The notes beneath the pieces were generated by a model, which did not search any database, had not been told where the DNA came from, and was given only the letters and a program-made list of their open reading frames with translations. Below, piece by piece: positions 11,088-38,085 of a stretch of DNA of 64,000 nt. Numbering within the stretch: position 1 is the stretch's first letter; every line of letters begins with the position of its first letter. Position numbers and translations under genes: made by a program. The stretch is from Hydractinia symbiolongicarpus (Eukaryota; Cnidaria; Hydrozoa; Anthoathecata; Hydractiniidae): contig NC_079880.1 of the NCBI RefSeq assembly GCF_029227915.1, positions 11,497,501-11,561,500 of the forward strand, written 5' to 3'.

Positions 11088-11175
11088 GTAACAAAAAAGC
11101 AAGCTGTAGTGATTCGACTAGTCTTATTTTAATTGGTAGAAGTTAAACCCTCTAAAGATCTCTAAGCAAAGCAAA
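11088..11175 (+). repeat. SIR repeat, M1 domain only (copy C1)
   Basis: Begins GTAACAAAAAAGCAAGC after GATTATGAG and ends with CCCTCTAAAGATCTCT. It is the sister of C3 in unit B but lacks the TAATGACTCC segment, which destroys hairpin 2. It starts at a GAG|GT donor-like site like the intronic copy at 37312. Confidence 0.7.
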
Positions 11176-12609
11176 AAATATGGGTAATGTTACAAATCTG
11201 CCAAATTTTCTTTCTGCTAAAAGTTTCCTCCTTAAAGTTACTAAATAGTTTTTGTTTTTTACTTTTAGTGATTGAGTTTTGAATGGTTTTCATTCCTGTG
11301 CTTTGCTGACGCAAAAGTTTCGTTAATTCTGTAAAACCCGAACCTGTTTTATATATTTAGCTTTGTTTATCAAAAGTCACGCATACAGATCGAAGTAAAA
11401 TCTTCAATGTATGCATTGTCTTGTACTGCTTTTTGCAACTTTTTTATGTATTTTTTAGGAAAAAGACGTGGGCCGTATGCCGTTAGAAGGGGTTGGGTTG
11501 GGGGCTGAGGCGAGGGCGTGGTGGCAACAATTTCATTTTTAGTTTTTGTAGATAGAAGTTCCATAGTTCCGTTTTTTCTTTTGTTTATTTAATAGTTTTA
11601 TAAACAAGTTACATAGTTATTTTTGCTACCAACTTGATTAACTTTGAGTTTTAAGAAGTTCTTCAAAAGTTAGTAAAAACTATTACAACTTTTTAAAGCT
11701 GTAGTTATGTAGTACAAACTTTTTTTATTAAATATTTCTAGTTTTGCGGTTATTTTTTTAGAACTAGATTTTCGTTCCGATACGGTAGTTAGAGATTCAG
11801 TTTAAGATGTAGTAATCTACTGACAAAAGATAGTAAAAAGAAGTTGCAAATAAAATATAAGTAATACAGTAATGGAAATTTATAATTCTTATACTAGTTA
11901 AGTAGTGTTACAGAAAACCTCTAATACCCCTAATTGTTAATTACGCCGGCTATTTTACTACCTTTTTATCGGTGAGTCGAGTTAATTTAAGCATGAATGC
12001 CAGGTATGCCACAATCCTGGAAATCGTAGAATTTCAAAAAAATATGTGTCAAAACTCCTGGAATTCTACCCAGACCTTTCTATTTTTCCAGTACAGAAAG
12101 TGTTGGTGGTGCTTTTACATGTTGTTTTATCAGGGCTTCCACCGAGTCAGGGGAAATCAGGGAAAGTCAGGAAAAAGACCCATTTTGGGAGAAAGTCAGG
12201 GAATTTTTTGTCTTTTAACTTGACTTAGACTGATAGAATATACATAGCTCTTCTTAATAATTGTTTTGATAATTACTGACAGGCTATGTTAGTCATTCAG
12301 TGGAACTAACATACTCTTGACCATTTTATGTAGTATATGGATAAAAGCTCCTTTGCCACAAATACGGTTTTTTAAATTTGTTTTTCTGTTTATATATATA
12401 TAACCTGTGTACAAAACCATGCAACAGTAGTATGAATGATATGAATGTTGTAAATTATTCTTGTTTTGTCTCGCTTTTAACTGTATATTTGTGTCATATT
12501 TTAGTTTTGAAGTGCATGCTTGTTTTACTGTTCTATAAGACACGTCGGAAGCAATAACCACAATATTACGTTTTGCTTTATTTTTAGTAAAATAGTTTTA
12601 AATATAGAG

Positions 12610-12836
12610 ATGACAAAGAACAAGTGTACCTTTCAGGATAAGTGGTTAGGTGATGAGAGGTTTTCCAAGTCGATTAAAAAGAAAATAAGAAAACTGCTAA
12701 ATGTCGATATTGTCAAAAACATTTCAAATATGGGTGATCGCATTTTATTAAAAAGAAGAAGCACATTGGGCAGAGTATAACTAACTCTAATGAGAGGCGA
12801 AAGTTAAGAAAAATAACCACAAACGAAAAGTCCAGC
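12610..12836 (+). pseudogene. BED/hAT-like zinc-finger exon, copy B
   Basis: Same exon as at 9297, with the same shift before the CRYCQKHF segment. After ISNMGD the main frame stays open for another 12 residues (ending STLGRV), whereas copy A stops earlier. No intact zinc finger can be read in one frame. Confidence 0.45.
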
Positions 12837-13860
12837 TGCGTTAGACACGGATTTAACCAGTTCCTTGACAATTCAACCAGAAATTCAAAGCATCCTTAAC
12901 ATGTGCTCAAAATGTTCAACCGACCGAAAAAGTCTTGGAATTTCTTAATGTGTAATTATCCTGAAAATTAGTGTCTATAAATCATGGAAAAAATGATTAA
13001 ATGTCCTGTGGAATTTACCATAACTGTGACAAACACTGAATACTATATTGTATTTTCTGTTGTGTAAAAAATATGTGTGCCTTGCGTTGTGAGAATAGGA
13101 GTAACTACATCGCAATGCAGACATAGCTAGCCTCTCTGCTTGTATCGTGTTTTCGTTGTAAACTTCACTTACATCAATAATTGTTTTTTATTTAGAAGAA
13201 GAATGAGCCACAATTAACGTGGGATTTCTTCAACATAAGCGTGGAGGAAAACAAAGAGATGGTGGCTACGCCTGCGAAGAAAACTTTCAATTGTGGCGTG
13301 CAGCTGGGGGTAAAGGATTTTTTACCCGGGAAGATGCCGCAAATTCCCGGAAACGTACGCACCTACAGTCCGTCCACTAAAGAAGATAAACGAATAAAAT
13401 ATTTGCTTCTTTTTTCGTGTGCTAGTCTACCACAAATTAAAATTTTTGTGCTATTGTCCTACTTGCATACTCTTCAAAAAGTTTTGGATAGAAATTTATC
13501 TCCTATGTTGTCATATTGCTGTAATATTGTGCTACTACTCGATAAAGCCCGTGGAAAAATACACTAAGGCGCAGAAGAACAATGGAAATATAGGTTGCTT
13601 TAGAGTTTTTGCTGACGTCAGCAGTGCATATACAAAAAGAAAATTGGAGAATTTTAGTCATTTGTTGTCTGTAATGTGTAGAGGTTGAAACGCTGATCAA
13701 AATAATGTACTGCTACTAATATTTCTACTACTAATACTGCTACTACTGTTATGCAAAGAAACTTTTGTTTTATTGTGTTAAAGTAGTTGTTTTGTAGTGT
13801 GTGTGTGTGCATGTGTCTTTCTTTTTAATTTTTAAAAAAGTAATTTAAATCATCAATTTA

Positions 13861-14356
13861 GGAGGGGAGAAAATAATTTACGAAGAGGTGGCAAGCCACC
13901 ACAATGATGAACTCAACCTGTTAGGTCTTTGGAAATAAAGCTAGAGGTTGTACTCCTCTAGAGAAAATGCCTCTAAAAGCACAATTCTCCCTTTTACAAG
14001 GATTTAATTAATAAATATAAAAAAATAAAAAGGACACAACACATTTGAAAAGATGAACAGAACTTTAACCAAGGGCAGGTAGGTTTCCACCCATATTTCT
14101 GAACCTAGGTAGCCTGGATGTCTAGCTGGGTCACCTCGAAGAGGTCCGCAGACGGTCATCAGCAGAAACTAGACATCCCTATCTTCCTAAAGTAAACTTT
14201 GACCACTTTCTGTTCAACTATGCTATTCTTTTTTTTTTTAACTCAGGTAATAAGTGGAGTCGTTACTCTCCAAAGACAAGATCATGTGTGATCAAACCCC
14301 CCTGCTAATATTTTTTTTGTGTTTTTTTTATTATTTAACTGGGGTAATAAGTGGAG
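13861..14356 (+). repeat. SIR repeat, full copy M1-M2-M3 (C2, type copy)
   Basis: The insertion is defined by comparison with unit A, where CATCAATTTA is followed by GTTATT and TAATTTGTAG. Here 496 bp replace GTTATT. M1: hairpin 1 GGTGGC-AA-GCCACC (13887-13900), hairpin 2 ACCT/AGGT (13916-13926), hairpin 3 CTAGAGG/CCTCTAG (13941-13961), then a pyrimidine tract and CAAGG (to 14001). M2: a 10-bp stem GGATGTCTAG/CTAGACATCC (14116-14125, 14169-14178) encloses hairpins ACCTC/GAGGT and CCG/CGG. M3: GGAG/CTCC and GATCA/TGATC hairpins, ending in a run of C (14241-14308). A second M3 is cut off at GTGGAG. No ORF of note. Confidence 0.85.
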
Positions 14357-14420
14357 TAATTTGTAGGTCTATGTCCCCACCCTGAAATGCGCATTGCTAA
14401 TATTCTTTCTGTGTTATTGG

Positions 14421-14651
14421 ATGGGTAATAGTGAAAGTTCTCACCAGTTGCAACTCCAGCGCAACCAAATTGATTTGTTGCAGCGTTTGAAGCTGCAACA
14501 ACAAAATATGTCAAATCAGCTCATGCAGCTGCAACAACAACAGCAGCTGCATGAGCAGCAATTGCAACAGCTGCACCACCAGCAGTACCAGCACTAGCAC
14601 CAGAGCAGGATGGTGTAGAGGAGGAGGGGCGTCGGCTCGGTGCTAAAGAAG
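14421..14651 (+). CDS. polyglutamine exon, copy B
   Basis: Sister of 10351-10599. It starts MGNSESSHQLQLQRN and has one fewer HQQYQH unit, again followed by an acidic segment in another frame and a donor-like GAAG|GTATTT at 14652. The function is unknown. Confidence 0.4.
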
Positions 14652-14821
14652 GTATTTTCATTTGTGTAATGAGAAAATAAATATCTTTTTCCGGTCTATA
14701 TCCTACCGAGTTTTGTTCAGTTTTGATAGCGTATATACCAAGTTTCATTACAGCGTTTTAGCTGTTGTATTAAATTTATCACCATTCTGTATATATTTTG
14801 TAGTGGAGCAGCGAGAGCGCC

Positions 14822-15055
14822 GTGAAAGACGGCAGGGTATGTTATTTTCAAAATGTGCATAAACAGTTGTTGCTGTTTCAGAAAGATGAGGTTGCAGTTC
14901 TCGCAAAATTAAATACAGATTTTATGGAGGAAAACATATTGAAATTAGCAGAATTTAGTTTCATGGATATAAAAGAAATAATTCTTAAATACATTTTAAA
15001 ATACCATACAACTATAAAATTAGATCAAGTAAAGTCACTCGTCATCAAATATTAA
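14822..15055 (+). CDS. unrecognised ORF conserved in both tandem units, copy B
   Basis: 77 residues, about 90% identical to 10769-11032 over the shared part, including NILKLAEFSFMDIKEIILKY. The upstream Arg/Glu-rich stretch is shorter than in A. No known domain recognised. Confidence 0.4.
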   Translation: MKDGRVCYFQNVHKQLLLFQKDEVAVLAKLNTDFMEENILKLAEFSFMDIKEIILKYILKYHTTIKLDQVKSLVIKY

Positions 15056-15109
15056 AATCAAAAAACTTTTTATTCTACCAATCAGCTTAATAGAAAAGAA
15101 TGATTATGA

Positions 15110-15205
15110 CATAACAAAACAGCAAGCTGTAGTGATTCAACTAGTCTAATGACTCCTATTTTAATTGGTAGAGGTTAAACCCTCTAAAGATCTCTATGCA
15201 AAGCA
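15110..15205 (+). repeat. SIR repeat, M1 domain only (copy C3)
   Basis: Follows GATTATGAC. It has hairpin 1 CAGC-AA-GCTG, hairpin 2 AGTC-TAAT-GACT and the GAGG...CCTC part of hairpin 3. The first bases are ATAACA where C1 has GTAACA, so the donor-like GT is lost here. Confidence 0.75.
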
Positions 15206-16341
15206 AAAAATATGGGGTGGAATTTAATGTCACAAATCTGCCAAATTCTCTTTCTGCTAAAAGTTTCCTCTTTAAAGTTACTAAATAGTTTTTGTTTTTT
15301 TACTTTTAGTGATTTAGTTTTGAATGGTTTTCATTCCTTTGTTTTGCTGACGCAAAAGTTTCATTATTTTGTAAAACCCGAACCTGTTTTCTTTATTTAG
15401 CTGTGTTTATCAAAAGTCACGCATACAGATCGAAGTAAAATCTTTAATGTAAGCATTGTCTTGTACTGCCTTTTGCAACTTTTTTTATGTAATTTTTAGG
15501 AAGAAGACGTGGGCCGTATGCCGTTAGAAGGGGTTGGGTTTGGGGGCTGAGGCGGGGGCGTGGTGGCAACAATTTTCATTTTTAGGTTTTGTAGATAGAA
15601 GTTCCATAGTTCCGTTTTTTCTTTTGTTTATTTAATAGTTTTATAAACAGGTTACATAGTTATTTTTGTTACCAAGTTGATTAACTGTGAGTTTTAAGAA
15701 GTTCTTCAAAAGTTAGTAAAAACTATTACAAATTAGCCCTAATTGTACAACTTTTTAAAGCTGTAGTTATGTAGTACAAACTTTTTTTTATTAAATATTC
15801 CTAGTTTTGCGGTTATTTTTTTTAGAACTAGATTTTCGTTCCAATACGGTAGTTACAGATTCAGTTTAAGATGTAGTAATCTACTGACAAAATATAGTAA
15901 AAAGAAGTTGCAAATAAAATATAAGTAATACAGTAATGGAAATTTATAATTCTTTTACTAGTTAAGTAGTGTTACAGAAAGCCTCTAATCACCCCTAATT
16001 GTTAATTACGCCGGCTATTTTACTACCTTTTTATCGGTGAGTCGAGTTAATTTAAGCATGAATGCCAGGTATGCCACAATCCTGGAAATCGTGGAATTCC
16101 AAAAAAATATTTGTCAAAACTCCTGGAATTCTACCCAGACCTTTCTATTTTTTCTCAATACAGAAAGTGTTGGTGGTGTTTTTATATGTTGTTTTATCAG
16201 GTCTTCCACCGAGTCAGGGGAAATCAGGGAAAGTCAGGAAAAAGACCCATTTTGGGAAAAAGTCAGGGAATTTTTTGTCTTTTAACTTGACTTAGACTGA
16301 TAGAATATATATTGCTCTTCTTAATAATTGTTTTGATAATT

Positions 16342-17040
16342 ATGCAATGCTTGGCGCAGGTATACTTTTTTTACATTCTCCACGGAGGCTCTGATAGGTA
16401 TTAAAAGAATTCTCCAGCGAGCAGCCAAAATGGCAAATGCATTTTCAATTGTTCTGCGAGCTGTTGGATTACAGTAGTTATATATATGTGCAGTGGTTCT
16501 GTAAGGTTATTTCTAGGATATGGTCGCATCAACAAGGACTTCAAAGAAATTTCATCTCCGATCAGAAAGTACGGTAATGGTTTGTATGGGAACCCACATA
16601 GATCTTCATCTTCAGGGAGGTGAAAATCTTTATCAGAGAATTTATTCCCCATTTCTGACTTAGTTAATACGCCGCTATCGTTATTGCTACCATACTCTCC
16701 GACATCAAATAAAGTAAAGCAGTAATTTGCATCGCACACCGCCAACAAAACAATGCTATAAAATCCTTTGTATTTATAGTATAAAGTACCAGAATTCTTG
16801 GGCATTCGATACAGATATGCTGGCATCTATAGCGCCAATAACGTGGGGGATATGCCAATGTCTTCAAAAATATTCTACCTGCAGACATGTGAATAGGCCT
16901 CGCATGTTTTAGTGACAATAGTTGATACATTATTACGCCCAATACGGTAAGAAAAAGACAATGATTGTTGACTCTCTCCAGTCGCTAGAAAACGCAGTGT
17001 AACAGAAAGACGTTCTCTCGCTGAAATAGGCTTGCAAAAA
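16342..17040 (-). pseudogene. PIF/Harbinger transposase relic
   Basis: Read on the minus strand in shifted frames, the order matches HARBI1-like DDE transposases. ISARERLSVTLRFLATGES (near 17020) is followed by the IGAIDAS segment with the first catalytic Asp. Next come MPKNSGTLYYKYKGFYSIVL, CDANYCFTLFDVGEYGSNND with the second Asp, LPYFLIGDE, MRPYPRNNL, and RTIENAFAILAARWRI with the Glu region. The C-terminal end (KKVYLRQALHNY) stops exactly where the truncated third tandem unit starts at 16341. At least two frameshifts separate the catalytic blocks. No TIR was found. Confidence 0.75.
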
Positions 17041-17071
17041 ATTGGTTCTTTTCTTCGTCATCTGAGGAAAA

Positions 17072-17195
17072 TTTTCAATATTGCAGCAAGACACAATGAA
17101 TACTCAACCTATTACGTTTTGGGGTTAAGTCATAGAGGTTTTGTTCCTCCAAAGTTACTGCTAAAAAGACAGTTAAACTTCTTTTTCGCAGGACT
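17072..17195 (+). repeat. SIR repeat, M1 domain, diverged subtype (copy C4)
   Basis: Same subtype as the M1 at 25592: TTGCAGCAAGACACAATGAA, then AACCTATTACGTT (hairpin 2 as AAC/GTT) and AGAGGTTTTGTTCCTC (hairpin 3). It ends with a pyrimidine tract and TTCGCAGG, a good 3' splice-site look-alike at 17192. It lies just upstream of the Harbinger relic on the opposite strand. Confidence 0.65.
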
Positions 17196-17449
17196 TGACA
17201 CTTGTTTTGAGATATGACCATTTGACATAATAAAACGTTTTAACTGCACTAAAAGTGTGAATCACTGTTTACAATTTCCGTCTTGCTGTTTGATGGGAAT
17301 TACACAGAGGGCAAAACCACTTATCATTCCCTGCCAAAACCTCGGGTTGTAAGAAGAGGCTCAATGACTTTTGAATTGTGGGTCTTGGTTGCAATTCAAG
17401 AAATAGAGACATTTCATCAGTAGAGTGCGATTGGAAACATGTGTCACAT

Positions 17450-18700
17450 GTGATTGTAGTTTTGGAACATGGTGGTAGTAAAAAGCGAGTCCTTTGTTGA
17501 CCCTGGGGATTTTATTATCCTGTCAGTTATGTGGACAGGTGATTTGCTTTTGGCACATTTGAAAGGTGACTTGCTTTCAGGGAAACTGTCTGTTGTTGTA
17601 GTAAGCGTTTCCCAAGGTTTTGAATGAAGTGTCATGACGTTATGTAAACCTACCCTGAGTTAAGGCAACTTTACAAGCTCCTAAGATATGTGGAACTGTA
17701 CAGATGTTTTTTACACAAATTACAGCTTACGTCTTTTTGTAATCCCCAGCGAACTAGATTACTTGGTGAAGGCAGTGTGTCATATGTGGAGCCAATCCAA
17801 AATGAAATTAGACATTGTGGCAGAGCCAAAAGGGTGCTCCACGAAAGATCGTTTTTCACATAACTGCACCATTTCATTCAGTTGCCTTGAATATGGAGTT
17901 GCACTGCCCGGGCTTGGAAAATGTCAGAGATGGTTTTGCGGTATTTTTGGCATCCTTTAGTAGGCATACCCTTCTGTGTAATCAAATCAAAACCAGCTTA
18001 CCCTGTTTGATGATACTCAGCTACCTTGATTGAATGATGGAGCCGTAACCATTTCCTAATCAGGACGGAAATCTTTCGTTCCAGTTTGATGACAGTTGAC
18101 AAAGAAACTTTAACCAAAGTTTATGAGTGCCTTTAAATGACGAGGATAAATTTGTCAACAGCAGCATGATCCGAAAGTTGGTGAGTAATGGTGCGACCAA
18201 GAAACCTAACAGGGTTTTCGTGAATCGATGGAATGGATTCGCCGTGAGCTGTAAAGGGCGATATATTCTTACACACTCCATTATCAATGACAATACTGCG
18301 GGACTTTGTTGCGCGAAACGACATGCCTGCCCAGTTAAGACCAGTAACACAGGGGTCAAGCAACGTCTGACAATCATGTGCTGAGGGAGACATTAGAAAT
18401 ATGTCGTCCATACACGCTTTCATTGGTGGTTGGGCGGAATCATTTACCGCTACACAAACAAATTCGATGATAATATTGATGGCTGCCAAGAAATAATCGA
18501 GAGGGTGCAGCCAACCTTTTTCATGCAAGTGCCACCCTGATGGAGAAGAGAGTGAAAAGGATTTACTCCATAAACCACCATAATAAATCTTAATAAGTTC
18601 TATCCAGGAAGGTGATACACCATAACGTTCTAAAGCAAAGAAGATAAGTTTGCGCGGAACTGAAGGGTATGCATTAGCTACATTATTAATGTAACGCGGT
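17450..18700 (-). pseudogene. non-LTR retrotransposon reverse transcriptase fragment
   Basis: On the minus strand a frame from about 18690 to 18133 reads through NVANAYPSVPRKLIFFALER, YGVSPSWIELIKIYYGGLW and the active-site segment CMDDIFLMSPS (DD at about 18405). It continues with WAGMSFRATKSRSIVIDNG and PSIHENPVRFLGRTI. Another frame at 17877-17671 carries the C-terminal words IGSTYDTLPSPSNLVRW and CNLCKKH, then KVALTQGRFT. The YxDD box reads C-M-D-D. I place it near R2-like elements by pattern only. The N-terminal half, an endonuclease and both ends are missing. Confidence 0.65.
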
Positions 18701-18859
18701 CAGGCAGTGATTTCCGGCGTTGTCGGGAAAAAAATAATCAAAATGGTAGCCTTAACTATAAACAACTGTAACTAGTTGACTACCTGGCTTACTTGTGAAT
18801 TAAAATGCAAGTATTTATGCTTCAAAATTGGAAATTTTGTTACAAAATTGAACCAAGAA

Positions 18860-20334
18860 ACCGTTTCTTCGTTGACTCATGAGGAATGCATGGAATAATT
18901 AAAAGAAATAGGCCAACATTGCTCTGGTACTACAGATGACATTGGCTATATCCAAAACTTCATGAAAGACTCAAAGCGAAGTGCAAAAGACAATACAAAT
19001 TTAACTGTAGCTTAGACCCACTATATATACCCCCTGTCACTGCCAAATGGAACAGCAATGAGCATAATTATCCAACGATAAATGAAGAAGTGTTCAAAAC
19101 GTAGTGTTTAAATAAATTTCAGGGAAGTAAAGGCCAGCAAGAAAAAACAGTGCGGATGTTGAAAAGCAGAAAAATAGCTTCTGTTAAAACAATAAAAAGA
19201 TAACGATAAAATTTAGGTTAAAGAAATGATTAAAAAATCCTATGTTACTTAAATTAGACCAGCAGTCATTTTATTTGAAAAAATTCAGTTCCCCAGAAAG
19301 CACATTGTTCTTGTCCAGTTGGTTAAAGTGGTCTATGTTGTCATGTAATTGCCCTATTGCTGTTGCTAAAACACTATTATGATACCAAAGAAAAACTTTT
19401 AGAGCTGACATGTACTCAACAAATTCAGAAATGGCACAGGAAATCACAAAAAGGGTCAGAACCTATGGTTCCCTTAGCTGAAATTAAATCTAAGTATGTA
19501 TGAAACATAAACATCAATGCTGCTGGCCTTGGTAGTTCATATTTTAAAAGAAATGTACCTAAAATGATTACAGATTGACAAAATAAACTAAAAAATGAAA
19601 AATCAGTTGAGGATCATATTCAAAACGTTCTAAATAACTCGAAAGTAGGGAGAGCTTTCTCAGTTGGAATCATGCTAAACTATAAATAGCATTGGGCATT
19701 GGCAAATTCATGAGCGGATCATGTTTATTGTATAACACCTTTATTTGATTCAAAAGTTATTGACATCGAGCCACAGCAATCAAAAGGAATCCAAAAAGAA
19801 ATACATAAACAATATATCAGTGATTTCTTGCTAGAAAAAAACACAGACAGTGAAAGAAATAAAATAACTACATATAAAATACTTGAACAGAACGGACTGG
19901 AATTAGAAATAGTAAATCCAATCATGACATACAAGGACCTCTTAAATATTCCTCTTCATAATAAAATCAATACTCAAATAGAAAGAAAAGCATCAGTAAT
20001 CGAAGTAGATTTGTGCTTTTTGAGAGCAACCAAACCACATGGTGATAATTACCAACATGTGACCCAAAACACAAACGATTGGTTAGAACTGCGAAAATAC
20101 AAAGTTCCTGGAAGCCGTCTGCCAGCTCTTTTAGGACTATACGGGAGTTCAAAATATGAGGTGACATGGGATATGATAAAAACAGGAAAAACCGAATCAA
20201 ACCAAAATCATATTAGAAATATAAAACGTGGCCATTATTTTGAAGACACAGCAGATTCCGTGGCTTCAAGAAATCGGTTTTTACAACTAGTGCCGTTATT
20301 TTTACTTGAAAAAACCCACAAGCTGCTTCGTTAG
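18860..20334 (+). pseudogene. SWIM zinc finger plus YqaJ-like nuclease relic
   Basis: Broken frames contain a SWIM-type finger (AHCSCPVG...CCHVIALL, about 19300-19370), then QKWHRKSQKGSEP and PLAEIKSKYV (to 19495). Further down lies a 168-residue open frame (19828-20334) with DNYQHVTQNTNDWLELRKYK, GSRLPALLGLYGSSKYEV and HIRNIKRGHYFEDTA. This is the pattern of the YqaJ viral-recombinase/exonuclease fold found in multicopy cnidarian proteins. Several stops lie upstream, and the C-terminal catalytic part is lost after FEDTA. Its job is unknown; nuclease activity is inferred from the family. Confidence 0.6.
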
Positions 20335-21600: not shown

Positions 21601-21607
21601 TGTAAAC

Positions 21608-21999: not shown

Positions 22000-22006
22000 T
22001 GTAAAC

Positions 22007-25328: not shown

Positions 25329-25450
25329 AGAAAATAATTTACAGTGGCAAGCCACCGCAATGATGAACTCAACCTGTTAGGTCTTTGGAAATAAGCTAGA
25401 GGTTGTACTCCTCTGGAGAAAATGCCTCTAAAAGCACACTTCTGCCTTGA
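25329..25450 (+). repeat. SIR repeat, M1 domain, interrupting the Tigger ORF (copy C5)
   Basis: Nearly identical to M1 of the type copy: GTGGCAAGCCACC at 25343, then CAATGATGAACTC and CTAGAGG/CCTCTGG with one G-T pair. It shares the 5' flank GAGAAAATAATTTAC with C2, C11 and C12. Transposase coding stops before it and resumes after it. A possible GT...AG intron is 25343-25434, but I cannot fix the exact boundaries. Confidence 0.75.
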
Positions 25451-25589
25451 AGCAATGAGAGTTTTGGTCAAATCTTGGAAGCTGTATCCATAAATACCGT
25501 TATTAATTGCTTTGAGAAAGCAGGTATCTCGAAAGAAACACAAACTGCAAGAATTAATGATGAGGATGACCCATTTAAATCAGGGGAAA

Positions 25590-28145: not shown

Positions 28146-28149
28146 TAAG

Positions 28150-28485
28150 CTGGAAGTTGTGGTGCTGACTGCAATTTACCTAACCTCTTCAAGGAAAAGG
28201 ATGTAAGGTTGTACACCATTAAGCAAGCTTTGTTAGCAAGGGACCACTGCTCTGCCGTTGCAATGAAACCACTTACCATGCACTTGGTTATAAGCAACAG
28301 TAGTGTAATAGCCATTGTTCAAATTTCCGGAGTGGTTAATTACAGCATTGAAGTTGTAGTGCTTGCAACAAGAGACTTCACTGTCTACAGTGATAGGAAT
28401 AGAAACGGTGCCCGGGTAAGATGTGACAGAAGAACAAACCTTAGACACAAGACCTTTGTTATAGGCAAAGCGCTTTTGTAGTTAG
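28150..28485 (-). pseudogene. USP-type ubiquitin protease, C-terminal fragment 1
   Basis: The minus strand reads LQKRFAYNKGLVSKVCSSV, SYPGTVSIPITVDSEVS and the histidine-box region INHSGNLNNGYYTTVAY, then WFHCNGRAVV. In USP (C19) peptidases the box is normally GHY; here the catalytic His position is Tyr. The Cys-box half is absent and a stop follows RAVVPC. It is a non-functional fragment, one of three in the window. Confidence 0.65.
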
Positions 28486-28675
28486 TCTATCTCTCCGTTA
28501 CAGTGTTTTGAACAGTTATAGAAATCTCATTTCCTGCTAATTATTGACACATTTTTTTATTGATATTATAGTAATATGCCTCCAAAAGCTAAAAAAATGC
28601 ACATTTATTAGAGATTAACAGTAACAAAATAACCATTTCAAGATCTCATTTAACAATCACGGAGTTTTTAAATCA

Positions 28676-28740
28676 AGTAATAAGTGGAGTCGTTACTCTC
28701 CAAAGACAAGATCATGTGTGATCAAACCTCCCGGCTAATA
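28676..28740 (+). repeat. SIR repeat, M3 module only (copy C9)
   Basis: TAATAAGTGGAGTCGTTACT, CCAAAGACAAGATCATGTGTG, then ATCAAACCTCCCGGCTAAT. It is nearly the same as the first M3 of the type copy (14250-14310). An AT run follows. Confidence 0.75.
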
Positions 28741-29037
28741 TATATATATTTATATGTCAAGTTTCAAAGACCAGCTACGAAACAATTGGTAATATATAAT
28801 GTCCAGCATAATAGTGTCATTAGTATAAACAATAGTATAAAAGTATAAATAATAATAAGATAGCAAGCCTGAGCCGCAGCGTAAATATCTAGCATTAAGT
28901 GTGTATTGAACTAATAAAAAACTGTCACAGACAGACATAAAATAAAATAATGTTGCAAATATAAATAATATGATGGAGGAAATATAAATATATCATATGA
29001 TGGAGGAATAACTTTCCAGCCGGTAAAAATGGTTTGA

Positions 29038-29255
29038 TTTTGAAAAAACTCCATGAAACAGCTAGCCAGCAGCAGATTATGGATTAGGAAACACGGCCTT
29101 CCGTGAAATATTTGAGATACATATGGTGTGTGAATGGATCCAAAGAGTTTTACATAGTGCAGTAATATCAATATAGACAAATTCGTGTAGCAAAAGTATG
29201 TTTATCCTCTTGAGTTATAAATAATATAATTATTTTTACACTGTTTTTGTTATAT
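29038..29255 (+). repeat. 218-bp direct repeat, left copy
   Basis: Begins GAAAAAACTCCATGAAACAG and ends at TTTACACTGTTTTTGTTAT. It is almost identical to 29604-29818. The pair flanks the USP fragment at 29297-29552, so together they look like a small duplicated or inserted unit. Confidence 0.8.
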
Positions 29256-29296
29256 TTATTAATGTTTTTAATTGTTATTGTTATTAATGTTATATT

Positions 29297-29552
29297 TATT
29301 AATAACGCTCATCAAACTGCTCAGGTTGAAAAAGAGGTAGTGTCGTGCGGTTCCCATCTCATTTTACAACAAAAATTTCACTTAAGGGCTATTATCAACC
29401 ATTGCGGCAACTTAAATAATGGTCACTACACAACCATAGCCTTCGACCAAATGGTTCACAGGTGGATACATTGCAACGATAGAGCAGAAATTTTCTGTGA
29501 TGTTATTAACAGTCACCAGTCATATGTTTTCTTTATAGTAGAGCTGAGATAA
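29297..29552 (+). pseudogene. USP-type ubiquitin protease, C-terminal fragment 2
   Basis: Reads NAHQTAQVEKEVVSCGSHLI, then jumps to KFHLRAIINHCGNLNNGHYT, WIHCNDRAEIFCDV and YVFFIVELR. Compared with fragment 3 it lacks the segment between LILQ and KFHL (about 125 bp). The GHY histidine is present but the Cys-box half is absent. It is followed by the last part of a SIR M3 module in antisense (to 29604). Confidence 0.7.
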
Positions 29553-29567
29553 GAATATTTTAACCAG

Positions 29568-29604
29568 AATGAGTCAGCAAGGGGGCTTGACTACACTCAG
29601 TCTT
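29568..29604 (-). repeat. SIR repeat, M3 terminal fragment (copy C10)
   Basis: Antisense GTCAGCAAGGGGGCTTGACT and CACTCAGTCTTG, cut off by the right-hand direct repeat. The same junction with the USP fragment occurs at 34684. Confidence 0.7.
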
Positions 29605-29818
29605 GAAAAAACTCCATGAAACAGCTAGCCAGCAGCAGATTATGGATTAGGAAACACGGCCTTCCGTGAAATATTTGAGATACATATGGTGTGTGAATGG
29701 ATCCAAAGAGTTTTACATAGTGCAGTGATATCAATATAGACAAATTCGTGTAGCAAAAGTATGTTTATCCTCTTGAGTTATAAATAATTTAATTATTTTT
29801 ACACTGTTTTTGTTATAT
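29604..29818 (+). repeat. direct repeat, right copy
   Basis: Second copy of 29038-29255, differing at a few positions (CAGTGATATC against CAGTAATATC; ATTTAATT against ATATAATT). Confidence 0.8.
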
Positions 29819-29984
29819 AACTTACAGATCATATTTTTATTTCCTCCTTGTTTAATCATTCTATTAAAAAGTATGGAAGCTCCGGAAATAAAGTCTTCGA
29901 CTAGTAAGGAGATCTGCTAATTCGTAAAAATTCGGAAAAGATTGGTCCATAAAAGGTAGATGATGGTTTTGATATTGCTTTTCC

Positions 29985-32720
29985 GATATTGCATCAAAAC
30001 ATCCAGAAGAAGTAGATCAGCTATACCACCAGATATCAAATATCATCAATAAATACAAAAATAAAAGTCTGATCACCTTAATAGCTGGGGATTTTAATAG
30101 CAGAGTAGGAAAAGCGAAAGAGGAATGTACAGGTATCTATGGTAAAGGAAAAAGAAATGACAATGGACAACTCCTAATTGATTTTTGCAACATCAGCAAA
30201 TTATTTTTAGCCAATACAGCATTCAACCATCCTGCTAAACATATAACAACTTGGGCAAATCAAAGACAAAATGCAAACAAAGATAAAGTCATCACAATAT
30301 ATTCACAAATAGATTTCATCATTGTTCTTCAAAAACAAAAACATATCCTACAAGATGCCAGGTCATTTAGTGGAACCATGACAAGTAGTGACCACAGATT
30401 AGTACTGAGTAAAATTAAAGTTAAACCTTTTCAAGTCTTTAAAAAAACAAGGACGGTGAAAGATAACATCAAGAAAGTAGACATAGCACACCTTACCAAT
30501 AACGAAAACATGAGAAAAGCTTACCAACAAAATCTAGAAACAAGTTTACAATCAAATGTTTCAGAAAACATCAGTATTAAAGAAAAATGGGATGCAGTGA
30601 AACAATCAATTAAATCTGCTGCTGAACAAACACTTCCTAGACAGATCCCAAGAAATCGTAACCATGGTCATAACTATGATCCAGAAATTGAACAAATGTC
30701 AAAAACACAAAAGGAACTTCGTATTCAAATCAGTAACTGCAAAGATCTTGACAAGATGACAAGGTTAAAAAACGAAAGAAATAACATCATGAGACGTATC
30801 AAAGACAAGCTGCTAGAAAATAAAACAAAAGAAATCGAAAATAAATTAAGTGAAATCAACCAAATGAAGGATACAGCAAAAACGTTCAAAGCCCTACGGA
30901 TGCTGCACTCAAAACCATATGAAAATCCATATGTTCACGACGAAACTGGTAAACATATCGCATCACCACAACTAGTATATGAAACAATTAAATCTCACTT
31001 TCAAACACAATTCTACAAACCAAATGAAACCAACTTACAACAATTCATCGATAATCCTAAACCATTGAACCAACCAATTACTACTGAGGAAATCAGAAAA
31101 TGTGCAAATCTACTTAACAACAACAGAGCATCAGGTTTCGATAACATCTCAGCTGAACTTATTAAATATGCTCCCACGATTTGTCACAATGAAATAGCTG
31201 ATATAGTGAATGACTGTTTCAACAAAAATGAAGACATCGATGTTGGAAAAGGTATCCTCATCCCACTGTGTAAGCCTAAAAAACCTAAAGGCCCTGTTAA
31301 AAATCTACGTCCTGTAACTCTACTTCCAATCATTCGAAAGATTATTTCCAACGTAGCTCTTCAACGCATCAAACCAAAAATTGACGACTACCTTTCATTA
31401 AGCCAAAGTGCTTTCCGACAAAATCGAAGCACGTCAGACGCTGTATGGACTCATCGCTGGTTAGTTGCAAGAATTGAAAAATACCAGGAGAAGATTTATA
31501 TTACAGGTATCGACATGAGTTCCGCATTTGACACCATCAAAAGAGACGAGTTGTTAAACATCCTTGGTAATGTAATAAACGAAGATGAATTGAGATTAAT
31601 TCGATTTTTACTTGCTAACACAAGTCTTGAAATCAGAATGTAAGATGTAGATACGACACCTTTTCCCAGTAACATCGGAAGTCCTCAAGGTGACGGAATA
31701 AGTGGTTGTTTGTTTAACATATATTTCGAAAGCTCCTTACGTAAAGTTAGAAAAATTCTGGAAAAAGACCATATCCTTGACGAACATTCATACTCAAAGA
31801 GAAACGAATCATTACTCCCAGTGACTGAAGTGATATACGCTGATGATTACGACCACATCACAGATGACATCAACAAAAAGAAGAAATTCAATAACATCAT
31901 AAAAGAAATTTTAGCTAAGGATAATTTGTTGGTAAACGAGACAAAAACAGAACACACATTACTAGAAAGAAAGAAAAAAGTAAACAACGAAACAAATGAA
32001 CCGTGGAGACATGTCAAGAAATTGGGGTCAAAGCTAGGTATCCATGAAGATATAGCTAACAGAAAAGCATTGTTAACAGCTGCCCTACAGAAAATAAGTG
32101 ATGTGTGGATTAAGAAAGATAAAATCAGTACTCAGCTAAAAATCAGAATCTATCAAACTGTAGTCAAATCCATATTATTATACAACTGTGGTACATGGGG
32201 TTTGAACAAAAATGAAGAAAAGAACATGAATTCCTTCCATCGTCGACAACTTCGTCAAGTATTAAACATCAAATACCCAGTAACAATAAGGAACAAGAAG
32301 TTGTACGAAATATCAAAAACAAGACCTATTACATTGGATATAATCCAAGCTCGATGGAGGTTATTTGGGCATGTTCTCAGATTACAGAAAGACACACCCG
32401 CTCAACTGGCTATGAATCACTATTTTGAACAATCGCAAGTATCAAAATTCAAAGGTCGTCAACGAATTACGTTACCAATCAGTTTAAACAATGATATAAG
32501 AAGAGCAGTGGAATCTGATAACAGTTTTGCAATAAAATTTGGCGTCTCGCAATTGATTTCGAAACATGACCTAAAGGTCTTAAGGGTAATCGCTGAAGAT
32601 CGAAATACATGGAAGTCCCTTTCAAGGCACATATATATTGCAGCTGAAGCAACTACTTATACTGAAGAAAATCTTACAGTAGATGATAGAAGCGAAGACA
32701 GCTGATACATACATACATTT
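29985..32720 (+). pseudogene. RTE-like LINE ORF (endonuclease and reverse transcriptase), one stop codon
   Basis: One frame runs from about 29970 to 32705 with a single in-frame TAA at 31641-31643. It starts inside an apurinic-type endonuclease (LIAGDFNSRVGK; SSDHRLVLSK). The reverse transcriptase follows (LRPVTLLPIIRKIISN, ITGIDMSSAFDTIKRDE, SNIGSPQGDGISG, VIYADDYDHIT with the YADD box at about 31840). A C-terminal part has WIKKDKISTQLKIRIYQT, YNCGTWGL and HRRQLRQVLNI. A few bases past the stop are CATACATACAT repeats, as is usual for RTE 3' ends; the clade is an inference. The 5' part is truncated and spliced onto unrelated DNA. Confidence 0.85.
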
Positions 32721-32989
32721 TCCGATCTGGCATGCGTACTATATGGAATGGAAATTTATCTCTTTTGTCAAAAGTTTATATATGAAAATGTTGTCTTTTA
32801 TTTCAATATCTAAATCTAGAAATGTAGCTTTGGTTCCCTGGTGTTAGACTTCAGGTGTAAGGAAATCTTCTCCATTATTTATTGTACACAGATCATCAAT
32901 AAATCGTCCTGTGTTGTTGTACTTATATGCTCTGGGAGAAACCTCAGAGATTAATTTTTGAACTAATTGTTTTTCACAGAAGTACAAGA

Positions 32990-33196
32990 CAAGGGTGCCA
33001 ATATGCCGCATACGCCGTAAAAAATGCAGGCGTTTTCGGGCGAGTTCGGCGTTGTAAAATAATATATTCTAAAAAAATATTCGCCCGATAAAAACAGCAT
33101 AGACCCCAACAATGCCCGAAAAAGACCCCAAAAAACAGACACTAAAAAAAAAAAACTACCAGAGACATAAAATTGTAGTAGGCCGTATTGCCCTTT
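32990..33196. mobile_element. short MITE related to the one at 21608
   Basis: Left end CAAGGGTGCCAATATGCCGC followed by ATACGCC; right end GGCCGTATTGCCCTTT. The left end matches the 21608 element (AGGGTGCCGACTTGCCGG, then AAACGCC) at about 20 of 25 positions. The interior contains GGGCGAGTTCGGCG. No clear target duplication. Confidence 0.55.
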
Positions 33197-33499
33197 CAAA
33201 TGAAATTATTTTTCGACAAGTTGCTAACGTAAAGCCCATTTTCAAACCAGAGATTTTGTTAACTTAACTTGACATGTGTTCGATCTTAACGATCTATCTT
33301 TTCATGTTTCATCAAGAGATTTAAACATGTACCCAGTCGCCTCTATAAATATCACATATGCGAATGTAAAAAGAAATGCAGTTGACACACTAATGACCTT
33401 TGTTTAACAATATATATATTAAATATGTGTTGGTGCTCTCCTACATTAAACTGTAACTCACTTCTCCGCTACAGTAAAGGAATACTGACTTTACACCAG

Positions 33500-33960
33500 G
33501 ATGAGTCGGCAAGGGGGCTTGACTACACTCAGTCTTGTCTTTGGAGAGTGACGACTCCACTTATTACCCCAGTCAAAAATAAAACAAAATCAAATAAAAA
33601 TTAAGTTAGCAAGGGGGTTTGATCATACTAGGTCTTGTCTTTGGAGAGTGACGAATCCACTTATTACCCCAGTAAAAATAAATAAATAAATAAAAATATA
33701 TTAGCAGGGGGGGTTTGATCACACATGATCTTGTCTTTGGAGAGTAACGGCTCCACTTATATATGAGTTAAAAACAAAGAATAGCACAGAACAAAAAGTG
33801 GTCAAAGTTTACTTTAGGAAGATAGGGATGTCTAGTTTCTGCTGAATGGGTCGAAAGAGGAGTACAACCTCTATCTTATTTCCAAAGAAAACAGGTTGAG
33901 TTCATCATTGCGGTGGCTTGCCACCTCTTTGTAAATTATTTTCTTTCTTTAACACCTTTA
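33500..33960 (-). repeat. SIR repeat with three M3 modules (copy C11)
   Basis: On the minus strand it starts GAAAATAATTTACAAAGAGG, GTGGCAAGCCACC. After hairpin 3 it jumps directly to the tail of M2 (CAGCAGAAACTAGACATCC), so most of M2 is deleted. Three M3 modules follow, each about 90 bp with AT-rich spacers (33705-33775, 33610-33680 and 33500-33570). Their second hairpins are GATCA/TGATC, a weakened GACC...GATC form, and GACT/AGTC. Confidence 0.85.
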
Positions 33961-34214
33961 ATACATTTGATAAAACATGTGCAAGAAGAACATGTGGGTG
34001 AGGAAAAAATATTGTTGGCAGTTGACGTTGAGTAACAATGAGGGAAATAAAAACGGAAGACTGAAGTAAGTTTAAAACTGCTTTTTATACATTTTCTCCA
34101 TGATAGCTAGGAATTTTGTGTTTTTATCAATCCTTTAAGAAACATGATATCTAATCTATATTAAATATGGCCAACAAGTAGTAACTATGGAGGGACATCT
34201 ACCACCTGCAATTC

Positions 34215-34667
34215 ATGTCATATTACCAGCTCCTCAGAAGTTATAGCACCGTATATCCAACTTTCTCTGCACCCTACGTTACAATCTTCCTTTGCCATGT
34301 TTGCAACGCTCATCAAACTGCTCAGGTTGAAAAAGAGGTAGTGTCGTGCTGTTCCCATCTCATTTTACAACTTAAACATTTTGCCAGTGCCAACGGCCTT
34401 GTGTCAAAAATTGCCTCTCGTATTACTGCTTACCCTGGTACCCTTTCCATACCTTTTACCGTAGATGGAGAAGTGAAATTTCGTAAAAAATTTCACTTAA
34501 GGGCTATTATCAACCATTGCGGCAACTTCAATAATGGTCACTACACAACCATAGCCTTCGACCAAATGGTTCACAGGTGGATACATTGCAACGATAGAGC
34601 AGAAATTTTCTGTGATGTTATTAACAGTCACCAGTCATATGTTTTCTTTATAGTAGAGCTGAGATAA
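34215..34667 (+). pseudogene. USP-type ubiquitin protease, C-terminal fragment 3
   Basis: The longest of the three. Reads HQTAQVEKEVVSCCSHLILQ, LKHFASANGLVSKIASRITA, YPGTLSIPFTVDGEVKF, then KFHLRAIINHCGNFNNGHYT with the catalytic His, and YVFFIVELR. The N-terminal half with the catalytic Cys is missing, so activity is not expected. It ends 17 bp before an antisense SIR repeat. Confidence 0.7.
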
Positions 34668-34683
34668 GAATATTTTAACCAGA

Positions 34684-35230
34684 ATGAGTCAGCAAGGGGG
34701 CTTGACTACACTCAGTCTTGTCTTTGAAGAGTGACGACTCCACTTATTACCCAGTCAAAAATAAAACAAAATCAAATAAAAATTAAGTTAGCAAGGGTTT
34801 TGATCATACTAGGTCTTGTCTTTGGAGAGTAACGATTCCACTTATTACCTGAGTTAAAAACAAAGAATAGCACAGTTGAACAGAAAGTGGTCAAAGTTTA
34901 CTTCAGGAAGATAGGGATGCCTAGTTTCTGCTGATGACCGTCCGCGCACCTCTTCGAGGTGACCCAGCTAGACATCCAGGGTACTTAGGTTCAGAAATAT
35001 GGGTCGAAACCTACCTGCCATTGGTTAAAGTTCTGTTCATCTTTTCAAATGTGTTGTGTCCCTTTTATTTTTTATATATTTTTTAATTAATTCCTTGTAA
35101 AAAGGGAGAATTGTGCTTTTAAAGGCATTTTCTCTAGAGGAGTACAACCTCTAGCTTATTTCCAAAGACCTAACAGGTTGAGTTCATCATTGCGGTGGCT
35201 TGCCACCTCTTTGCAAATTATTTTCTTCTC
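34684..35230 (-). repeat. SIR repeat, full antisense copy M1-M2-M3-M3 (copy C12)
   Basis: Minus strand order: GAAAATAATTTGCAAAGAGG with GTGGCAAGCCACC (35190-35215), CTAGAGG/CCTCTAG (35130-35155), M2 with GGATGTCTAG/CTAGGCATCC (34915-34978, one wobble) and ACCTC/GAGGT, then two M3 modules (34790-34855 and 34684-34750). The CCG/CGG hairpin of the type copy is disturbed here (GTGCGCGGACGGT). Confidence 0.85.
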
Positions 35231-35599
35231 CAAAAAAGCGATCGAGAAGAAAGATGGGAGCTGAAAAGCACAGTGTGGGGATATTGTGAAAGACGCATGA
35301 AGCTTATATGTAAAAAGAGAAAATATAAAAAACTGACCAGATCGAACTTGCGAAATGTGCAGTTAAGTATTCTTCGAAAAATAACCAATAATTAGAGCAT
35401 ATGATAAAAACACATCTGTAAAACATCTGATTCTCAAGTAAAATTCGATGGTTACATCATTGTCTGGACTATAAGAAATGTATATAATTCTTTAATAGTA
35501 AAACCTGGCAAATAGCGGGTCTTCATTTCCACAAATCAGAAAAAAAATCTGCTGAAAAACAGTAATAGAATTAGTAATAGTAAAAAAATGTACCTACTT

Positions 35600-36543
35600 G
35601 TGGTCTACATTACAGCTGTTTTGCATAAAATGCTCGTTGCAATGCTTCTGTTGGAATAATGAAATGAAACAAATCATCGAAACTGATACCAGGTCCAAAT
35701 TGTATATGGCGTTGTCATCATATGCATATGCTGACATTTGCAACATTTGATTGGGAAATCTTGAATCACCATCAGCAACAAATTGAAGAACTGGCACAAT
35801 TATTTTACTATAAAAGAAAATAATATTTAAAAATATATAGTATATGTAACGACATTACCTGGTTTTGCAGAAAACGATTGTTGGTACTAATTGCTGACAC
35901 TTCATACAATGGTGCATCCAGTGTTGTCTGACAAACAGCCAAGGGGTAAACATAAGTAAATCTTGGTCTACTTAAGGCTTCGGCTTCAGCAAAAACATGA
36001 TAAATATCTGAGGGATATGGTTGTAAAAGTTGGTATGGATTCTACAACTACACCATCACAACCATTTTTATCTATTGCTCTTTTCCGGTTTTCATATGTC
36101 TTAAATTGAGTATATCCCCATAAATAATGGTCATTGTTTACGTCGATATGTGTAACGCCAATTAATCTTTTACAGGGTTTTCTGTCAAACTGCACTGACA
36201 TATCACCGAAAAATTCATTGATGTCAAATTCCTCACGTGTTTCGGACTAAGACTCATCTTATCTCTTCGAATGCAGAAAGTGTTTTTTTTAATCAAGCAG
36301 ATGGTTTTTTTAAAAGTAAACAAGAAACCTTGACGGTTTGAAACACTCGTCGTTTCTGTATATGTGCATGTTCATGAGTATTCTATTACTTATATTTTGA
36401 TAGATGGGATTGCTTAAGCCATAACCGCTTCCATCGATACTGGTTACCGTCTGTGTTGCTTCTACTGTTCTAGCCAGTCGCGAAGTTCCAGAAGGGAAGT
36501 ACGAAAGTTGCTTCAACAAACAACATGACAATGCCTGTTGCAT
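35600..36543 (-). pseudogene. unrecognised multi-exon gene, head-to-head with the RPA-like gene
   Basis: A first exon (36543 to about 36327) encodes MQQALSCCLLKQLSYFPSG... and ends at TCAAG|GTTTCT. A second block (about 36260-35858) encodes FDINEFFGDMSVQFDRKPCK, YLWGYTQFKTYENRKRAID, KNGCDGVVVES and, after a one-base shift, PYPSDIYHVFAEAEALSRPR to NNRFLQNQ followed by a donor GTAATG. A third (about 35810-35618) encodes VPVLQFVADGDSRFPNQMLQ and, after another shift, GPGISFDDLFHFIIPTEALQ. Splice-like ends and coherent protein suggest a real gene with small frameshifts. I do not recognise the family. Confidence 0.5.
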
Positions 36544-36619
36544 GACGAACCAATTAGATTACTGATTTTTTCGCGGTGAGCGAATTGCATTTATTTCTTC
36601 ATTTAAAACTCTGGATAAA

Positions 36620-38085
36620 ATGGCAGCATGGCGTATGAATGTTCTGTTTGGTGAAAGTGTGGTGGTGATTAAGCAACGTAGAATGGCGCAATCCGGAAAG
36701 CAACCTAGAACCCCAGGTAAAATAGAACAGACTTTACTTTCACCTACGCATACGAAGAAGTGTTTTGTGCTGCTGTTGTATAGATAATAAGGCCTTCATG
36801 AGTGTTAAACTTTAGGTAGTTTTAAAGTTAATAAAACGAGTGACTACTACACTACTTCTACCACTACTACTTGCATAGTTACCTACGTATAGCTAGGTAT
36901 AATTTTTTGTATGTATGTAGTTAGCTATAATTTTTCCATGATGATATATATCTTTTATTTTATTTTTTAGAGAAAGGAACTGGTCAAAATTTGGAAGGAT
37001 ATGTGGTGCAACTGTCTCCAATACAGACAGCCAAAAGTAATTCAAGTACCAAATTTTTCGACATGACGTTCAAAACCGAGGATGAAAAGTTTCGTGCTGT
37101 CTGTTTTTCGCCAGAGAAACGACGGAGACTTGAAAAATACTTCGAAAGTGGTACCAGTTGCCAGGTCACCAATGTTATGACTGGCAACAACAAGATGGAA
37201 GTAAAACTCACAAACTTTTCATCCATCAAACCAAAAACAGTCCCTTTCAAGAATGAAAAAATCGAGTGGCAGTATCACACAATTGATGATATCATCAATG
37301 ATGATGATGAGGTGACAAAACAGCTAGCTGTAATGATATTTCTTGTCTAATGACAGCTGGTTCTACTATAGTTAGAGGTTGCAACCCTCTAGAGATTTTT
37401 TGAGCCAGCAACCTATGTCAACATCAAATTCAGAGTCGTATCACGAGGGGAGATAAACAACAAGGGCACCTAAACAACAAGGGCACCTATAAGTTACGAG
37501 AACATGTCATCACAGATGATGGTGTCAATGCAATTATCTTGACAATGTTTGGTGACCTAGTCGATAAACTTGAAGAAACACGTTTATTCGTTGGTTAACT
37601 GCCAAGTCACGACTTTCATGAATAAAAAAAGGCTGAAAAGTTCATATCTTTCTGTTGCGGAGGAAGCAGAAGGATCAATTCCTGATTGAAGCTCTACCGA
37701 GGTGGAAGAAGAATTAGCTTCAACATTGGATTCCACGACAGGGAGTGCAGAAGTCAAGATACGTTCAATTGATGATGGAAGTTTGTGTTCAGTGTTGTCG
37801 TGCAATGAATGTGCAGAACAACTGATAGAGAGTGGGAACAAAAAGTTGCACAAATGTGAATCTTGTGGTGCTGTGCAGTTGGTAAGCATGTGCAAATCAA
37901 AGATAATGGTGTCATTCACTTCATCAACAAACGAGAAGTTCCAGTGCGAGGGTCCCTTAATTCGAGGTGTCTTACCGAATGACATTGAAATTGGTGACAA
38001 TGAGGACTTTTTAATTTTTATGCTTTCGAAAACTTTCGCAATTGAACATGTGAATGGAAAAATTACCAACATAAGTGTCAAGTAG
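36620..38085 (+). pseudogene. RPA-like OB-fold protein gene with introns
   Basis: Exon 1 (36620-36719) begins MAAWRMNVLFGESVVV and ends CCCCAG|GTAAAA. Exon 2 (36972-37311) follows TATTTTTTAG and, in matching phase, encodes an OB fold: LEGYVVQLSPIQTAKS, FKTEDEKFRAVCFSPEKRRR, TSCQVTNVMTGNNKMEV, WQYHTIDDIINDDDE. The next intron (37312-37404) is a SIR M1. Exon 3 resumes PATYVNIKFRVVSRGEINNK but has a 17-bp tandem duplication (37455-37488) that shifts the frame, and further stops near 37600 and 37688. The last part (37702-38085) has a C-x2-C...C-x2-C ribbon (CNEC, CESC), as in the C-terminal domain of the RPA large subunit. Single-stranded DNA binding is inferred. Confidence 0.6.
37312..37404 (+). 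repeat. SIR repeat M1 forming a 93-nt GT-AG intron (copy C13)
   Basis: Starts GTGACAAAACAGCTAGCTGT right after GATGATGATGAG and ends CTCTAGAGATTTTTTGAG before CCAGCA. Removing it joins GAG to CCA and keeps the OB-protein frame. It has hairpin 1 CAGC-TA-GCTG, hairpin 2 TGTC-TAAT-GACA and hairpin 3 TTAGAGG...CCTCTAG. It contains no M2 or M3. Confidence 0.8.

Follow-up and report, generated by a model that had tools for sequence, protein, structure and literature searches.

The window analysed here is a stretch of 64,000 nt from the genome of the hydroid Hydractinia symbiolongicarpus (NC_079880.1, positions 11,497,501-11,561,500; coordinates below are window-based), which harbours thirteen copies or fragments (C1-C13) of an interspersed repeat composed of three modules, M1, M2 and M3. 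With a probability of about 0.9, this repeat represents the structured 3' untranslated region (UTR) of a group of long interspersed nuclear elements (LINEs; non-long terminal repeat retrotransposons) of the restriction-like endonuclease (RLE) type, which carry a C-terminal ubiquitin-specific protease (USP), the 3' UTR presumably acting as a handle in target-primed reverse transcription (TPRT). The original prediction had regarded the block as an unrecognised free-standing family, and a LINE 3' UTR was absent from the identities it considered. The evidence does not support this description, and the "unknown repeat" becomes the tail of a named kind of element.

Repeat copies in the window

Searches with M1, M2 and M3 profiles (nhmmer) found all thirteen places to be homologous, as copies or fragments. 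M1 yielded 11 matches (E <= 2.3e-6), M2 five, one of them partial (E <= 9.6e-8), and M3 ten (E <= 5.8e-7), besides which two fragments of M3 scored E 0.003-0.006. When up to 3 mismatches were allowed, the core pattern of M3 was present nine times in the window versus 0 in 100 shuffles. The proposal that thirteen copies share one M1-M2-M3 plan therefore stands as far as homology is concerned, but all three modules are complete only in C2, C8 and C12, while C11 retains parts of all three. Since C1 and C3 lie within one tandem duplication and C10 lies within a 235-bp duplicate of the C12 region (100% identity among the matches listed), fewer than 13 copies are independent. The M1 end is kept by the window copies except C9 and C10. 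The copies are as follows:

C1, 11080..11161, minus strand: M1, subfamily D (nhmmer E 2.3e-6)
C2, 13862..14356, minus strand: M1-M2-M3 followed by a partial second M3, subfamily A, inserted copy for which the window also contains an empty site (compared with 10080-10320)
C3, 15103..15200, minus strand: M1, subfamily D, tandem-duplicate partner of C1 (nhmmer E 5.3e-15)
C4, 17066..17194, minus strand: M1 end, which on the RNA strand is the 3' terminus, from a decayed subfamily C LINE (nhmmer E 3e-27)
C5, 25328..25445, minus strand: M1, 5'-truncated, in a Tigger transposase pseudogene (nhmmer 25331-25448; ends from Tigger relatives)
C6, 25583..25936, minus strand: 5'-truncated copy with M1 and M2, subfamily C, sharing its Tigger pseudogene with C5 (nhmmer; RNA 5' side from comparison with genome copies)
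C7, 26652..26775, minus strand: M1, subfamily D (nhmmer E 1.1e-22)
C8, 27584..28150, minus strand: M1-M2-M3-M3, subfamily B (profile search)
C9, 28665..28742, minus strand: solitary M3 (nhmmer E 3.7e-23)
C10, 29307..29605, plus strand: USP remnant and start of M3, partial duplicate of the C12 region (profile search, tblastn)
C11, 33502..33942, plus strand: three units of M3 with partial M2 and M1, internally deleted (profile search)
C12, 34684..35224, plus strand: M3-M3-M2-M1, 3' UTR of an element with a USP remnant at 34204..34664, subfamily A (profile search; same order in copies elsewhere)
C13, 37308..37399, minus strand: M1, 5'-truncated, subfamily D, in an RPA/OB-like pseudogene (profile search)

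LINE coding sequence upstream of the repeat

In the window, C4, C8, C10 and C12 are located directly downstream of USP remnants, and C4 is preceded on the same strand by reverse transcriptase (RT)-like, zinc-knuckle and USP remnants. The coding remnants listed separately from the copies are:

17133..17511, minus strand: USP remnants of the LINE ending in C4 (seen in translation, and with USP queries in tblastn as pieces from 17481 to 17205)
17643..17726, minus strand: region with the CCHC knuckle of that LINE, split over two frames (translated as CNLCKK... and ...HILGACKVALTQGRFT)
18136..18699, minus strand: RT remnant, again from the LINE ending in C4 (open frame of 188 aa; RVT_1 E 1.4e-4, 22.1 bits)
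28179..28475, minus strand: USP coding remnant that immediately precedes C8 on the RNA strand (tblastn E 2.3e-53 to the USP of subfamily B)
34204..34664, plus strand: USP coding remnant upstream of C12 (UCH PF00443 E 4e-11; tblastn E 4e-73)

At 22.1 bits, the RT remnant of the window (18699-18136) falls short of the Pfam cut-off of 29.6, and a PDB search gave no match for it; it shares motifs with genome copies in which RVT_1 passes the cut-off. In these copies, a LINE-type RT was detected with E 1.2e-9 (L033) and 2e-11 (L034), and its sequence matches in PDB are LINE-1 ORF2 (E 1e-10) and R2 (E 1e-7). The knuckle CILCKKPSSNVSHILGAC, present in L033 and L038, has the form CX2CX8HX4C, and in L033 it shares a frame with the motif RPD..LELT..KxxKY; Pfam zf-RVT stayed below its cut-off. 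The putative RLE itself was recognised by motif only (RPDVLLIS...LELT...KLSKY, including KX2KY). A CCHC knuckle of the form CX2-3CX7-8HX4C between RT and endonuclease, together with the RPD/KX2KY motif, is described for RLE LINEs in PMC5678591.

The RLE motif and the USP occupy one open frame in L032, L037 (with RAD in place of RPD), L042 and L063. The 596-aa RLE-USP frame of L063 covers UCH completely (1-254/254, E 1e-33) and includes the boxes GNTCYANS and GHYW, so that its USP (peptidase C19) is a complete predicted UCH domain with Cys and His boxes. The USP of a subfamily A copy matches the solved USP8, USP21 and USP15 by sequence. RT, RLE and USP follow one another in L032 and L034, and copies elsewhere in the genome extend beyond M3 into USP coding sequence. 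Next to a subfamily A copy there is a second RLE-USP frame, which has diverged (L031:3805-4575, minus strand), and several RLE-USP families seem to coexist.

Genome copies, subfamilies and the constant 3' end

The many genomic copies expected in the original prediction were looked for in 480.9 Mb of the genome, where hundreds of candidates, as distinct from confirmed copies, were obtained; 40 were scored per search, query included. With the C2 block (subfamily A), the 40 scored of 817 candidates were 93-96% identical apart from C2 itself, and with C8 (subfamily B), which has M3 in common with the C2 query, the 40 scored of 722 candidates were 90-94% identical. The corresponding values were 81-94% for C6 (subfamily C; 40 of 110 candidates), while for the C13 core (subfamily D; 40 of 273 candidates, itself included) all were identical over 89 bp.

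The sequence upstream of the repeat was surveyed at loci fetched with 3'-UTR queries only, these being the best matches rather than a random sample (30/40 scored for A, 12/40 for B, 12/40 for D and 6/40 for C). USP coding was present within 1.5 kb upstream on the same strand at 24/30 A, 8/12 B, 6/12 D and 1/6 C loci, and the subfamily's own USP was found at its usual distance at 20/30 A (108-280 nt), 7/12 B (159-319 nt) and 5/12 D loci (705-946 nt). In subfamily D, the stretch from USP to M1 appears to consist of M3 and M2 in diverged form, of which M3 was aligned. One to three M3 units, joined by A-rich linkers, were seen per element, and M1, the 3'-most domain, is present in all four subfamilies.

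All 30 A loci, with 26 distinct flanks by reading of the list, reach to within 3 bases of one 3' end, 24 of them to the last base, and all 12 B loci reach to within 2 bases of one 3' end; in subfamily D the end is a short ATC repeat of variable length. The constant 3' end of the A and B loci, in combination with the truncated 5' ends of window copies, is the boundary pattern of RLE LINEs. Membership in this class is indicated at the sequence level by the RT, the knuckle and the boundaries, and for the putative endonuclease by motif only.

Strand of the RNA

Most likely, the repeat was originally read on the strand complementary to its RNA, which would run 5'-M3(n)-M2-M1-3' with M1 as the constant 3' end. 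The retained M1 end is the 5' side on the strand read originally and the 3' end on the opposite one, the latter being the pattern of target-primed retrotransposition; LINE coding is found on that opposite strand as well. CUUG and UNCG are stable tetraloops, and on the proposed RNA strand the loop of M1 hairpin H1 reads CUUG in C1, C2, C3, C5, C7, C11 and C12, CUAG in C13 and CGUG in C8, while the loops of M2 hairpin P2 read UCUG, UCCG and UUCG, with a triloop in C6. The mean fold z of M1 is -1.61 on the proposed strand versus -0.86 on the other (nine of 11 copies; C13 behaves oppositely), and five M3 cells pair as G-U on the proposed strand only. Pointing in the other direction, two M2 cells and single M1 cells of C4, C5 and C13 form G-U pairs only on the strand read originally, and the fold stability of M2 and M3 favours neither strand.

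Covariation in the helices

The paired changes in the helices of the M1-M2-M3 repeat are real. In a sequence-only alignment of four of the five M2 copies (the part in C11 was left out), 8 of 18 pairs are changed on both sides and 98.6% of cells are paired, as compared with 44.4% in the best slid control; neither the paired cells nor the covariation score were equalled in any of 500 shuffles. For M3, counted in nine of ten units of subfamilies A, B and D including genome copies (a 39-base piece was left out), 5 of 9 pairs are changed on both sides and 92.4% of cells are paired (best slid control, 48.1%), the covariation score being reached by 0/500 and the number of changed pairs by 14/500 shuffles. 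In the case of M1, helices H4 and H2 of the four subfamilies (8 of the 14 rows listed, H2 of D being counted though out of register) comprise 11 pairs, of which 5 are changed on both sides, with 85.2% paired versus 64.8% in the slid control at +1; here the covariation score was reached by 0/500 and the number of changed pairs by 25/500 shuffles. The helices in the M3 and M1 counts were named after the alignment had been seen, and H1 and H3 were left out of the latter owing to a shifted register, of H1 in A and C/D and of H3 in B. When arms of five helices, picked by hand, were swapped between subfamilies, the observed value was 98 against 67.5 +- 8.8 in permutations, and 1/20000 permutations was as high. 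These tests bear out the earlier observation that stem arms change together, and support the proposal that an RNA fold was under selection in the source elements.

Not all measures agree. The number of further pair types is not clearly above that of shuffles (equalled in 154/500 for M2, 99/500 for M3 and 266/500 for M1), H1 and P2 taken singly could not be distinguished in the arm-swap test (3/24 and 2/6 permutations as high), H3 is nearly invariant, and the fold stability of M3 is no better than that of shuffles (mean z about 0). Moreover, the shuffle controls do not preserve the relatedness among copies. A MAFFT alignment of ten of the 11 window M1 copies (C11 left out) recovered helix H3 only, without a paired change; H1 consequently rests on a loop-anchored hand alignment of nine copies, from which, as from the fold scores, C1 (a duplicate of C3 with a deletion) and C11 (part of H2 lost) were dropped.

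Insertion sites

The empty site of C2, preserved in a tandem duplication (compared with 10080-10320), reveals an insertion without target-site duplication and with a 5-bp target deletion, the ends being placed to within about a base. The RPA/OB-like gene broken up by C13 reads straight on in P0110 (95% identical), and the Tigger coding split by C5 and C6 is likewise continuous in relatives. The lost codons suggest, at the protein level, a target loss of about 5 bp at C5, 4-5 bp at C6 and 2-5 bp at C13. A 4-bp target-site duplication, considered for C13 and C6, did not hold up once relatives and genome copies had placed the ends. Insertion into 28S rDNA, the site of R2, was not observed: the flanks differ among loci, and the hosts include Tigger and RPA-like genes.

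The duplication that provides the C2 empty site spans 8901-16342, with copies 3.3-4.1 kb apart. The pseudogene hosting C13 extends over 36619-38085 (95% identical to P0110), and a 17-bp tandem duplication at 37454-37489 shifts its frame. At its end, an inverted repeat (37808-38511) with 351-bp arms, 100% complementary, and a 2-nt spacer is either an assembly artefact or a fold-back.

Searches for known RNA families

In agreement with the original prediction, the block could not be assigned to a known ribozyme, SINE (short interspersed nuclear element), intron or spliced-leader RNA: no Rfam family reached its threshold in the block, permissive searches gave only weak matches far below gathering scores, and the insertion evidence agrees. 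Several candidates were rejected individually. A GT donor and an Sm-like site, as in a spliced-leader RNA, are not kept between copies. The tRNA-type B box has an invariant C, which is missing from helix H3 in the copies compared. Of the hammerhead motifs CTGANGA and GAAA, the former is present on the opposite strand of M2 and the latter is absent. Nothing was found in viral contigs with the M3, M2 and M1 patterns, nor in prokaryote genome contigs with the M3 pattern.

Alternative explanations

A separate SINE-like family (M3-M2-M1, about 550 nt) which borrows a LINE 3' tail and moves in trans would account for the many window copies without coding sequence, for the sequence shared by C8, C11 and C12, which runs to about CCAG on the RNA 5' side, and for the 6/30 A loci at which no USP lies within 1.5 kb. 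However, many genome copies run past the CCAG edge into USP coding, and the block has no relation to tRNA, 5S or 7SL in Rfam and no ARAGORN match. T-rich runs stop RNA polymerase III, and those of the linker would do so here. Such a family is quite improbable. Still less credible are spliceable, intron-like insertions (introners). These are called to mind by C5, C6 and C13, which lie in coding sequence, and C13 does fit GT-AG with the frame kept when read as GAG/GTGACA...TTTTTTGAG/CC; yet C5 and C6 show no such fit, the full copies C2, C8 and C12 lie outside coding frames, the host genes are broken and the block is the 3' end of a LINE. A non-autonomous DNA transposon (miniature inverted-repeat transposable element) whose hairpins are simple inverted repeats, a match to a known family of this sort being one of the findings that the original prediction had named as overturning it, would share with the block that it is short, AT-rich, hairpin-bearing and interspersed. 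It appears the least probable of all, given that C2 ends with neither a terminal inverted repeat nor a target-site duplication, that only one end is constant, that the hairpins are internal and covarying, and that RT-RLE-USP coding lies upstream.

A different question is whether the fold, within a LINE 3' UTR, serves RNA stability, translation or export rather than template recognition. Three separate domains seem to exceed a minimal handle, but the presence of M1, the 3'-most domain, in all four subfamilies and the precedent of R2 (as described in PMC3414825) render this unlikely. Most likely, the fold would be the recognition site of the element's own RT in TPRT: the position of the 3' UTR, the constancy of M1 and the truncation pattern agree with such a role, by analogy with R2.

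The assignment to a USP-bearing RLE LINE also has to be set against several less favourable results. Every window copy is decayed, and C9 is a lone M3 without the 3' end, which simple 5' truncation would not give. RT and RLE-USP were never found in one unbroken frame, their order being derived from several broken copies, and the candidate RLE stretch of 329 aa has no PDB sequence match up to E 10. Finally, USP coding within 1.5 kb was not seen at 5/6 C, 6/12 D, 4/12 B and the above-mentioned 6/30 A loci, and six of the USP hits (four in A, one in B, one in D) lie far away or belong to another subfamily.

Proposed mechanism and relation to known elements

On the RNA strand, the element would be ordered RT, CCHC knuckle, RLE, USP, stop codon, M3 units, M2, linker, M1 and 3' end. 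The element's own protein would pick its RNA by the fold, and TPRT would then start at the RNA 3' end, as in R2. Incomplete copying would leave 5'-truncated pieces such as C5, C6, C13 and others, which may be why the original prediction met the modules without coding sequence.

According to PMC3414825, the R2 protein binds the R2 3' UTR to start TPRT, and the structure is kept by compensatory changes. Like the present repeat, the Drosophila R2 3' UTR is the structured 3' UTR of an RLE-type LINE that drifts in sequence with compensatory changes, and R2 has variable 5' junctions with target deletions (PMC3414825). R2 resides in 28S genes, whereas the Hydractinia elements occupy scattered sites, possess repeated M3 units and carry a C-terminal USP. 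R2 is also accompanied by SIDEs, short pieces with the 3' UTR fold that are thought to move on the machinery of the parent (PMC3414825); the SIDE is a defined short element, while the window pieces look like 5' truncations followed by decay.

NeSL and Utopia also belong to the RLE-type LINEs; a ubiquitin/SUMO-type cysteine protease is present in some of them, and Utopia has, as here, precise 3' and varied 5' boundaries (PMC4640811). As presented in that source, the protease of nematode NeSL and Utopia-1_TSP is Ulp1-like and N-terminal, in contrast to the C-terminal USP (UCH, PF00443) of the Hydractinia elements, whose N-terminus lies beyond the copies read. Deubiquitinase-type domains are combined with mobile elements also in DNA transposons with OTU or Ulp1 and in a Trichomonas transposase with peptidase C19 (PMC2836005), but those are DNA transposons and the present elements are LINEs. 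RLE LINEs with Ulp1-like proteases and a folded R2 3' UTR were already known; what appears to be new is the C-terminal USP on an RLE LINE. No USP-bearing LINE was found in the literature searched, a search that lay outside Repbase and Dfam, where a described family may exist.

A USP on an RLE LINE adds a further kind of ubiquitin-type protease to the retroelements. An involvement of ubiquitin in transposition has been proposed generally for DNA transposons (PMC2836005), and the USP-bearing LINE makes such a link testable. With four subfamilies side by side, one of them rich in identical copies, this laboratory animal offers a natural covariation set for studying self-RNA recognition by RLE LINEs. 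As a tentative suggestion, somewhat less than an even chance being given to it as a whole, an RLE LINE lineage captured a C-terminal deubiquitinase, intact in a recently active branch, along with a modular M3/M2/M1 3' UTR under selection at the RNA level; the protease may shield the ribonucleoprotein or the integration intermediate against removal that depends on ubiquitin, and the 3' UTR may act as a recognition code of several parts, by which the coexisting subfamilies are kept separate. According to PMC10411563, unclassified repeats make up about 48% of the H. symbiolongicarpus genome, and structured tails of this type may be part of them.

Other features of the window

The plus strand at 30378-32705 carries a different LINE, the RT of which shares 96% identity with a Hydractinia symbiolongicarpus protein across 40% of the query. 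The region 41446-56415 consists of three copies spaced by 4,990 bp (99% identity over the listed 300-nt stretches; the end coordinate follows from the spacing), with repeated helicase and LINE frames and PIF1 in the first copy. Helitron_like_N was detected at 62352-63863 on the minus strand. Within the window, Rfam gathering scores are reached only by a tRNA-like sequence at 3315-3385, which has an odd anticodon call.

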